From the NCBI GenBank assembly GCA_020354625.1, contig CP070651.1, positions 2,194,669-2,258,668 on the forward strand: 64,000 nt of DNA, written 5' to 3'. Positions 56,496 through 60,236 of this stretch are shown piece by piece. Under the pieces are notes generated by a model. That model did no database searches. It saw only the letters and a list, made by a program, of their open reading frames with translations, and was not told where the DNA came from. Both the position numbers and the translations under genes were made by a program. The DNA comes from Trueperaceae bacterium (GTDB lineage: Bacteria; Deinococcota; Deinococci; Deinococcales; Trueperaceae). Position 1 is the first letter of the stretch, and the number at the start of each line of letters is the position of its first letter.

Positions 56496-57632
56496 CTAGA
56501 CGCCCAGCACGTTACGCCCTACGAACTCGAGCGCGGCGTCTCCAGACGGCGGGTGCATGGGAGCGGCTCGTACATCTCGGAAGTAACGTTCGAGCGGCAA
56601 GCCTCGCTCGAGAGCCGCGGCGCCGGCGAGCTGCAAGGCGGTATCGGTTACGTTTCTGACGGTGACGTCGGTGAGGTGCTTGGCCGCTGTTGTTTGTGGA
56701 AGGTAGGCTCTGGCGTCGGCCGGATCGCCCGACCAATCGCTGGCGGTAGCTAGTAGAAACTGTTTTGCGGCTTTCAAGGCGATATCGATGCCGCCGATCT
56801 CCCTTTGGATCTTGGGGAGGGTGGCGATCGGTTTGCCGAGGGCTGTGGGGGTGCGTTCGAGCGCGTAGCGGATCACCGCGTCGCGGGCGGCCAATGCTAT
56901 GCCTAAGTAGGTGGCGGCGATGAGGAGGGGGAACCAGACGTTGGGGACCGCTTTCCCCGGCTTGTCTTCCATCAGGTGGGACCGGGGCACGGTGACCTGT
57001 TCCAAAAAGAGGTCGTTGCTGTTGCTCGCTCGTAGGCTGAGTCCGTCGCCCCAAGTCCGTTCCCAGCGGATCCCTTCTGTGGTGGACGGTATCCAGGCAA
57101 TCGCAGCATGTGCTTCGAAACGGAGCCGGACCAACAGGTGGTCGAGCGCGTCTCCGCCGGTGATCCAGGTCTTGTGACCGTTTATGAGCAGGGTGCCGTC
57201 TTCGCTCGGTACCGCCTCGGTAAGTGGTAGACCGCCGCGCGCGGGGCTGCCGAGTTTCGGTTCGCTTGCGGCGAAGTTGAGGAGTGCTCCCCCGGCAACG
57301 TCGCTGCACAGCCGATCGAAGAGAGCCTCGGGCCAGCTTCGCTGTTCACGTTCGTGACCGATGGCGTGGAGCGTCATGGCCGCGATCAGGGCGGTGGAAC
57401 CGCTCCCTTTGGCGAGCTCGAGCTGAGCTGCCACGCAATCGGCCAAAGGGAGTTCCGATCCGCCGTAGGCTTTGGGCACGCTAAAGGCAGCAAAGCCGGA
57501 GCTGTGTAGGGCTGAGATGTCTTCGGGTGGAAGCCGACCGAGCCGGTCCGCTTCCTCGGCTCGGCTGTCGAACTCCACAGCCAGCCGTTGGGCAATCTCA
57601 AGGGGGGGTGACGTTTGGGGTGCTGCTGACAT
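56496..57632 (-). CDS. Acyl-CoA dehydrogenase-fold flavoprotein (possible monooxygenase type)
   Basis: 378 residues of the acyl-CoA dehydrogenase superfamily: ALHSSGFAAFSVPKAYGGSE, FAASEPKLGSPARGG, GHKTWITGGDALDHLLV, C-terminal helical bundle with TDTALQLAGAAALERGLPLERYFRD. The TE(P/T)xxGSD motif and catalytic Glu of true dehydrogenases are altered (ASEPKLGSP), so it may be closer to the DszC/SfnC-type flavin monooxygenases that act on sulfur compounds. Start ATG 57632; a terminator hairpin and candidate RNA lie 90 bp upstream on the same strand. Confidence 0.75.
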   Translation of the reverse strand: MSAAPQTSPPLEIAQRLAVEFDSRAEEADRLGRLPPEDISALHSSGFAAFSVPKAYGGSELPLADCVAAQLELAKGSGSTALIAAMTLHAIGHEREQRSWPEALFDRLCSDVAGGALLNFAASEPKLGSPARGGLPLTEAVPSEDGTLLINGHKTWITGGDALDHLLVRLRFEAHAAIAWIPSTTEGIRWERTWGDGLSLRASNSNDLFLEQVTVPRSHLMEDKPGKAVPNVWFPLLIAATYLGIALAARDAVIRYALERTPTALGKPIATLPKIQREIGGIDIALKAAKQFLLATASDWSGDPADARAYLPQTTAAKHLTDVTVRNVTDTALQLAGAAALERGLPLERYFRDVRAAPMHPPSGDAALEFVGRNVLGV

Positions 57633-57725: not shown

Positions 57726-57755
57726 AAAAAAAAGATCGCGGTGTGATCGACCGCG
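57726..57755 (-). terminator. Intrinsic terminator on the reverse strand
   Basis: CGCGGT/ACCGCG stem with a 7-nt loop, then three bases and eight T. The best canonical terminator in the window. No protein gene ends before it on this strand, which points to a non-coding transcript or a leader. Confidence 0.8.
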
Positions 57756-57890
57756 TTTACGGGCAATATAACGAACAACCCTCGCTTACCTTCTCTCATG
57801 CTCTTTCGGTTCTCCCTTCATAAAGGGTGATACTCGCTCGAGCCTCTACTGGTATGGAGGGTTGTCGTTTTTGGAGTGTTCGTTATCTAT
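57726..57890 (-). ncRNA. Candidate structured RNA or regulatory leader
   Basis: On the reverse strand, before the terminator, the sequence folds as a rod. ATAACGAA (ends at 57886) pairs with TTCGTTAT (57768-57775). After a 5'-side bulge, CAACCCTC (57857-57864) pairs with GAGGGTTG (57776-57783). TACC/GGTA, GCTC/GAGC and an apical CCCTT/AAGGG hairpin follow inside. A TATAGT box near 57918-57923 could be the promoter. It is either a small RNA of about 160-190 nt or the leader of the flavoprotein gene at 57632. I do not recognise the family; 57633-58151 otherwise has no gene. Confidence 0.4.
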
Positions 57891-58096
57891 TTCTATAAGA
57901 GACCTCCTTTCCCCCTTACTATACTCCCTGTTTCGCAGTCGAAATGAAGCCGAATTACTAGCTCAGGCCAGCTTTTAGCTGTATAATGATACTTTGGGTG
58001 TAATTCACCGACGATGATATCACGCCCCCTGATCTCTGGTTAAAAAGTGTGAAAGTCCGTTTCCAACGGTGTTCGGCGCTTGCAAGTTCGCCGTTT

Positions 58097-58132
58097 TCTC
58101 CGCCCGGTCTGTTATAACAGACCGGGCGGAGA
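58097..58132. repeat. Perfect 36-bp palindrome downstream of hppA
   Basis: 18-bp arms (TCTCCGCCCGGTCTGTTA and its reverse complement) with no spacer. 20 bp after the hppA stop. There is no U tract on the hppA strand (AAAA follows), so it is not a classical terminator; it may act as a U-less terminator or protein-binding site. Confidence 0.75.
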
Positions 58133-58151
58133 TCGGCTTGTATCCAGCAGG

Positions 58152-60236
58152 TTACAAGAGAATCCCGCCCACGCTCGCAATCATGCTGGCGAAGATCAAC
58201 GATACCGTGTTGATCACTTTGATCAGCGGGTTGATGGAGGGACCGGCTGTGTCCTTGTAAGGGTCGCCTACGGTATCGCCTACCACCGAAGCGGCGTGCG
58301 CTTCGCTGCCCTTACCGCCGAGATTTCCATCTTCGATGTATTTCTTGGCGTTGTCCCAAGCTCCGCCGCCATTGGACATCATCAAAGCCATCATCAGGCC
58401 GCTGGCGATCACGCCGATGAGGAGTCCACCCAGGGCGAGCGGGCCGAACAGAAAGCCGACTATCAGCGGTGCCACCACCGCGATGATGCCGGGCAGGGCC
58501 ATCTCGCGCAGGGCAGCTTGCGTTACGATGTCGACCGCACGACCGTACTCAGGCCGAGCGGTACCTTCCATGATCCCCGGGATATCACGAAACTGCCGCC
58601 GCACCTCTTCGATGACGCTGCCTGCAGCTTTGCCGACCGATTCCATCAGGAAAGAGCTGAACAAAAATGGCAACATGGCGCCCGTGAGGAGCCCGATCAA
58701 GACGATGGGGTCGTTGAGGCGGAAGGCACTCTCCCCCAAGTCGAGGCGCTCGCTGTAGTCGGCAAAGAGGACCAGCGCTGCCAGTGCAGCCGAACCGATG
58801 GCATACCCTTTGGTAACTGCCTTGGTGGTGTTGCCGACCGCGTCTAGCGCGTCGGTGTTCTGGCGCACTTCTTCAGGGAGGTCGCTCATCTCGGCGATCC
58901 CTCCGGCATTATCCGTGATCGGACCGTAGGTGTCCATGGCGACGACCATACCGGTTACAGACAGCATGGCGACCGCCGCTACTGCGATGCCGTAGAGACC
59001 GGCAAACTGGAAGGCGATAAAGCTTGCAATGACCAAGACGATGACGGGGAGGGCCGTGCTCTGCATACCGACGGCGAGCCCGCTGATGATGTTGGTGGCA
59101 CTCCCGGTGACAGAGGCGTCCGCGATACGTCGTACCGGCGAAAAGCGGGTGCTGGTGTAGTACTCGGTGATGAACATGATCAAGATCGTCACCACGATCC
59201 CGAGGATGCTGGCGCCAAATATATTCAGCCAACCACCGGCGCTGTTGAGGAGGTTGAAGTCGAAGTCACGAAACATCGCAAAGGTGGCGATGCCGAAACC
59301 GATCACGCTCAGAATCGCGCTGGCGAAGACGCCCCGGTAGAGCGCCGCCATGATGTTCCCGTCTTCGCCCAGCCGGACAAAGAAGACCCCGATGATGCTG
59401 GCCAAAATGGCGATGGCCCCCAGGACAAGCGGGTAGATGACCAAGCTGGTCACTCCGCCGGTGTGGGGCAGCAAGAACCCGAGGAATACCGCGCCGATGG
59501 CGGTGACGGCATAGGTTTCGAACAGGTCGGCGCCCATGCCGGCGCAGTCTCCAACGTTGTCCCCAACGTTGTCGGCAATGACCGCCGGATTTCGAGGATC
59601 GTCTTCCGGGATTCCGGCCTCGACTTTCCCCACCAGGTCAGCACCGACGTCGGCCGCCTTGGTGTAGATGCCCCCACCGACCCTGGCGAAGAGGCTGATT
59701 AGGCTCGCGCCGAAAGCGAAACCGACCAGTGGCTCGACCGGATTGGAGATCTTGAAAACCACGAAGAAGAGGTAGAAGAAGCCGGCGACGCCGAGCAGTG
59801 CCAACCCGGCCACAGCGAGTCCGGCGACCGCTCCACCGTTGAAGGCGATCTTGAGCGCGCCGGTGAGGCTACTGCGAGCTGCCTGGGCGACGCGTACGTT
59901 GGCTCGCACGGCGATATTCATTCCGACGTAGCCGCTAATCGCCGAGAAAAGTGCGCCTACAGCGAAACCGACTGTGGTCCACCACCAGAGAACGCCGTCT
60001 GATCCTCGACTCGCCATCGCCACCACCGCAAAGATGACAGTGATGATGACGCCGACGATCAGGATGGTGCGGTACTGGCGGTTCATATAGGCTGACGCGC
60101 CCTGCTTCACCGCGTCGGAGATGTCCACCATGCGCTCGTCGCCGGTTTCTGAGGCGAGGATGTTTTGCCCGAGCAGAGCAGCCGCGATCAAGGCGACGAT
60201 TGCAGCGAGTGGGATAAGGATAATCAGACCGTCCAT
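58152..60236 (-). CDS. hppA: Membrane-bound proton-translocating pyrophosphatase
   Basis: Couples pyrophosphate hydrolysis to H+ export across the membrane. 694 residues, about 16 helices. The substrate motif [21 protein letters not shown] and the acidic motifs [19 protein letters not shown] and DNAGGIAEM are intact. [15 protein letters not shown] has Lys and Thr at the positions that distinguish K+-independent enzymes, so it should be the K+-independent H+-pump. Ribosome-binding site GGAGG before ATG 60236. Divergent from pgm across 192 bp. Confidence 0.97.

Follow-up and report, generated by a model that had tools for sequence, protein, structure and literature searches.

The locus described here raises the question of what kind of RNA is encoded on the minus strand between hppA, the membrane pyrophosphatase gene (58152-60236, minus strand), and an acyl-CoA dehydrogenase ORF (56496-57632, minus strand), within a stretch of 64,000 nucleotides of a Trueperaceae genome (contig CP070651.1), referred to below as the window. 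A first-pass annotation described a rod-like fold followed by an intrinsic terminator and, 90 bp further on, by a flavoprotein gene, and considered either a stand-alone RNA or an attenuating leader of that gene. The acyl-CoA dehydrogenase ORF was indeed found to start ca. 95 nt past the T run of the terminator, on the same strand. The accompanying statement that no protein gene precedes the terminator on this strand is incorrect, since hppA ends ca. 240 nt upstream of the element. The region between hppA and the element also holds a perfect long hairpin (CTCCGCCCGGTCTGTTATAACAGACCGGGCGGAG; 58090-58137, minus strand), just 3' of hppA and lacking a strong T run, which probably is the hppA 3' end, and a second promoter-like site, TTAACC-18-TATCAT (58043-58014, minus strand), which could be the source of a longer transcript in the window's genome.

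The proposed rod-like fold is borne out by prediction, as 57960-57700 (minus strand) folds with z = -2.6 (2 of 200 shuffles as good) and a 144-nt core with z = -3.9 (1 of 200 dinucleotide shuffles as good). The features needed in the following, all on the minus strand and listed from the 5' side, are:

57918-57923, minus strand: -10 box TATAGT of the element's own predicted promoter, kept as TANNNT in homologues
57901-57910, minus strand: perfect Shine-Dalgarno AAAGGAGGTC, at the predicted RNA 5' end and partly paired in hairpin P1
57873-57907, minus strand: P1, the 5' hairpin around the Shine-Dalgarno, weak in the window sequence and clear in most relatives
57846-57896, minus strand: putative micro-ORF with AUA start, 16 codons IEIDNEHSKNDNPPYQ (first residue fMet if initiated) and stop UAG at 57848-57846
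57857-57867, minus strand: 5' arm of P2 (CGACAACCCTC), within the micro-ORF
57789-57852, minus strand: inner pairs of P2, CC (57852-57851) with GG (57790-57789), and the P2/P3 internal loop holding the stop codon
57800-57843, minus strand: core P3/P4, comprising GCUC/GAGC, a 3x3 internal loop, a covarying P4 and an apical loop
57772-57783, minus strand: 3' arm of P2 (GAGGGTTGTTCG), with a U-rich tail next to it
57728-57755, minus strand: intrinsic terminator CGCGGTCGATCACACCGCG-ATCTTTTTTTT with a T8 tail, stem 57755-57737

A DNA search of relatives yielded two diverged homologues (L003 and L004) with different genomic surroundings, whose predicted folds share the outer helix P2 with that of the window element. 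A first covariance model, built from the window element and L003, found matches in 18 genomes, and a second one, built from 20 sequences, matched 31 of 39 Trueperaceae genomes (30 at E <= 6e-8 and one weakly) and none of 72 other Deinococcota genomes. An exact-motif scan of 84,980 species genomes returned six matching contigs, all of Trueperaceae/Deinococci, and the same scan of viral contigs none. Rfam 15 matched no family at the gathering score in the window, nothing relevant at E <= 10 in the element region and nothing at the element at E <= 0.5 in 15 homologous loci, in agreement with the earlier judgement that this is neither an SRP, RNase P or tmRNA nor a known riboswitch. An open-access literature search found no paper on small RNAs of Trueperaceae or Truepera, and none on RNA elements with membrane pyrophosphatase. 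The element thus belongs to a previously uncatalogued RNA family, confined to Trueperaceae as far as searched; a branch of the Deinococcota that is mostly uncultivated and has received little study thereby gains a well-supported RNA family. The RNA is missing from some Trueperaceae, including a finished 3.26-Mb genome (G013), hence it is not essential. In G002 and G003, inspection by eye of the stretches between hppA and the adjoining genes did not reveal the element.

Concerning the fold, covariation across homologous loci, named at the outset as one way to check it, is strong. The 29 distinct sequences show 92 double-change cells, compared with 26.6 +/- 4.9 in shuffles and 6-19 with the partner slid, and P2 and P4 covary, with changes on both sides in 9 of 11 and 4 of 5 pairs, respectively. 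In both L043 and L044 the inner P2 pairs CC/GG are replaced by GC/GC, a switch from C-G to G-C, and the P3 pairing GCUC/GAGC is invariant in 29 of 29. Standard pairs occupy 90.5% of the cells of the 22 pairs, a percentage inflated by the fitting of the alignment to the covariance model; the signal is nevertheless clear in the slid controls and in the exchanges within individual helices.

The ends of the transcript are marked as well. The right end given to the element by the first-pass annotation, 57923, is the first base of the conserved -10 box, and TANNNT precedes AAGGAGG in all 29 distinct homologues, by 13-15 nt in 28 and by 18 nt in one. From this spacing, the RNA is predicted to start at ca. 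57911-57912, i.e. about at (G)AAAGGAGGU. The terminator reported after the fold was found in place, and in the homologue set the tail following P2 is 41% T compared with 15% further downstream, being a plain T run in L004, L007 and L012. Its length as a stand-alone RNA would be about 150-185 nt. Upstream of the -10 box, ca. 60-30 nt before the element (A6 loci), there is a further conserved block, roughly GAcGTGngnacCAc.tC and without TTGACA, for which an activator site or an unusual -35 is possible.

Own promoter, conserved covarying fold and own 3' end, the marks of a stand-alone structured RNA, were thus all found by sequence analysis, and we regard this assignment as almost certain. It is the half of the earlier alternative that stands, on the conserved promoter, the covarying helices, the presence in 30 of 39 genomes and the lack of a shared downstream gene. 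The other half, a cis-regulatory leader or attenuator of the downstream gene, has on its side the strand and position of the acyl-CoA dehydrogenase start, ca. 95 nt past the terminator, and a GNAT gene next on the same strand in a few relatives. The acyl-CoA dehydrogenase lies downstream in the window only, and no conserved position upstream of one gene family, as a leader or riboswitch would occupy, was found across the homologous loci. Downstream genes vary in identity and orientation, and most relatives end facing unrelated convergent genes, which contradicts a leader role for the RNA family and makes it very unlikely here. A leader of the acyl-CoA dehydrogenase was rejected as not syntenic.

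The neighbour on the other side is more constant, as hppA lies within ca. 2.6 kb of the RNA in 23 of 28 loci, which could suggest a 3'-UTR or partner RNA of hppA. The gene is found upstream on the same strand, divergent, or downstream and convergent, and it comes from two subfamilies ca. 46% alike; moreover, one genome (G012) holds two diverged copies of the RNA (L007, L004) and no hppA. Three orientations, two subfamilies and two copies without hppA argue that the proximity is best read as synteny and not as cis-regulation. Together with the element's own promoter, they make an hppA-bound role even slightly less probable than a leader of the gene downstream, and hppA leader and 3'-UTR RNA were both rejected on orientation, subfamily change and the genome with two copies and no hppA. 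In two genera (L046, L049, L052, L053, L068-L071) the hppA beside the RNA is of the other subfamily, ca. 46% identical to the window's, and lies divergent or convergent to the RNA, with tandem pairs in L052/L053; this is possibly an in-place replacement of the membrane pyrophosphatase.

A rod-like, stand-alone RNA also recalls 6S RNA, and a diverged 6S RNA of the Trueperaceae lineage would fit with the absence of any RF00013 match in a search of the whole window genome, control genomes being matched. We consider this the least probable of all the readings weighed here, given the other topology (a 5' hairpin ahead of the P2 rod, with a small internal loop), the 5' Shine-Dalgarno and micro-ORF, the absence of the RNA from several complete Trueperaceae genomes and the lack of even a sub-threshold 6S match. 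As a candidate, 6S RNA was rejected because its model matches neither the element region nor the homologous loci.

The 5' part of the RNA holds two features that the first-pass annotation missed, the Shine-Dalgarno and the putative non-AUG micro-ORF. AAGG(G)AGG is present in all 29 distinct homologues, with a mean pairing probability of GGAGG of 0.55-1.0 in each of them, and is followed 5-9 nt on (ca. 10 in L004) by AUA or AUC, never by AUG, in 29 of 29, a count that includes L004, where AUC was picked by us as the start since the first AUA gives a longer frame. From this codon the frame is open for 13-21 codons in 29 of 29. Its stop, in most cases that of CC-ACUAG, falls where P2 ends on its inner side, within a span from 10 nt before to 13 nt after the invariant AGGCUC. 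Interior stops number 0 in the AU[A/C] frame compared with 11 and 7 in the other two frames (29 sequences), or 0 compared with 8 and 4 in 12 genus representatives, and shuffled interiors are open in all 12 with a probability of ca. 0.02, which is modest support. Where the CC-ACUAG stop was lost, as happened in four lineages, the frame always closes at another site, with CGC-UAG, UGG-UAG, UAA or UGA (Fisher p = 0.006, with the lineages as counted by us); in L044 UAA replaces the usual UAG, and L042, frame-shifted by the deletion of one base, again uses CAC-UAG. Separate tests give moderate support for translation, at p about 0.006-0.02, the permutation at genus level not being significant, and on this sequence evidence the micro-ORF is probably translated.

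The peptide itself is unlikely to be the point of that translation. Codon differences in the micro-ORF are 11 synonymous compared with 56 non-synonymous, on which a conserved peptide was rejected, and no amino-acid constraint was seen among the distinct homologues, whose peptides of 13-21 aa share almost nothing beyond I-[ED]. A dual-function small RNA, in which the small protein is made and acts beside the RNA, would explain the own promoter, the perfect Shine-Dalgarno and the conserved stop, and is nevertheless unlikely in view of peptides so little shared and so freely changed. Small RNAs with a short reading frame are known from SgrS/SgrT, VcdRP and Spot 42, which are likewise independent transcripts. 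Their frames have canonical starts and conserved acting peptides, whereas in the Trueperaceae RNA AUG is never used as the start and no conservation of the peptide is seen.

It should be noted that AAGGAGGU and AU[A/C]GA could be conserved for a reason other than translation. They might be RNA motifs of a stand-alone trans-acting or protein-binding RNA with an incidental open frame, and the Shine-Dalgarno might bind ribosomes, or act as a decoy, by docking on the 16S rRNA 3' end. Strong structure and covariation, the lack of amino-acid conservation and the absence of AUG in all 29 sequences are what such an RNA would show, and the frame property is mostly kept in chimeras: with swapped 5' halves the stop window is kept in 92%, and a permutation reaches the real value in 170 of 20000 (all rows; not significant for the 12 genus representatives). 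The chimera test is a weak one, since stops are available to more than one frame within the conserved core. The pattern AAGGAGGTN{4,8}ATMGA, occurring once in the genome, near chance expectation, adds little. Mere RNA motifs would not readily account for a spacing of 5-10 nt between Shine-Dalgarno and AU[A/C], which is that of start sites, for a codon set matching that of infC in the same genomes, for the missing of interior stops from the AU[A/C] frame only, or for stop loss that tracks frame use. We therefore hold this account to be possible, at clearly less than even odds, and prefer translation from a non-AUG start.

The infC parallel suggests what such a start may serve. infC is the classic IF3-autoregulated gene, and in every Trueperaceae genome with a readable start (L102-L133) it begins with AUA, AUC or AUU after GGAGGTG, AUA being used in the window's genome. 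A start other than AUG, GUG or UUG after a Shine-Dalgarno is thus conserved in the RNA, as AUA or AUC in 29 of 29, and has its counterpart in infC. An infC AUC is mostly paired with AUC in the RNA, and an infC AUA or AUU mostly with AUA, an agreement that may be due to descent, the genomes being related. The two differ in that infC is a full protein gene, whereas here a non-conserved frame of 13-21 codons lies inside a structured RNA. IF3 represses non-canonical starts of the infC kind in E. coli and Streptomyces (PMC5472188), and the GTC start of Streptomyces sigR, presented as a first documented case of an IF3-controlled non-canonical start beyond infC, is also repressed by it (PMC5472188). 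sigR offers a precedent for a conserved non-canonical start outside infC and for IF3 control of another gene; unlike the present case, it encodes a sigma factor and involves no structured RNA. By this analogy, gating of the RNA by IF3 comes close to an even chance without reaching it.

The best explanation, to which we give a probability of roughly 0.45 on sequence grounds, is an RNA unfolded by a translating ribosome, with initiation restricted to conditions of weak IF3 discrimination. The conserved non-AUG start would place translation of the micro-ORF under IF3 codon discrimination, as for infC of the same genomes. With normal IF3, initiation would be rare, and P1 and P2 would form, giving a compact rod with its 3' end at P2 or at the next terminator. 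When discrimination is weak, with IF3 scarce or with an excess of ribosomes, a ribosome would initiate at AUA/AUC, cross P1 and the 5' arm of P2 and terminate at the P2/P3 loop, leaving the rod opened, with a presumed change in 3' end, stability or partner binding. The ORF takes in the 5' arm of P2 and has its stop in the P2/P3 loop, so that a translating ribosome and P2 are mutually exclusive; because the peptide is not conserved, the signal is likely the act of translation and not its product. Structure, start codon and this exclusion are read from the alignments and folds, and from them we infer the IF3 response and its consequence. Leader-peptide attenuators such as trp and erm resemble this scheme, in that a helix with one arm in a short ORF would not form while a ribosome occupies that ORF, and differ from it in that the Trueperaceae RNA has no consistent downstream gene and its input would be initiation, not codon stalling.

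More tentatively, this may represent a new class of regulatory RNA that takes initiation stringency (IF3 activity) as its input, a non-AUG micro-ORF opening the main helix when IF3 is limiting. If true, initiation fidelity would be turned into an RNA signal read by a non-coding RNA; beyond infC, known genes with non-canonical starts for IF3 control are very few (PMC5472188). Gene callers assuming ATG/GTG/TTG would miss the micro-ORF. A final point concerns P1, whose 3' arm in some genera (L018, L016 and relatives) reads GGAUCAC-UCCUUUC. In these sequences it resembles the 16S rRNA 3' end.
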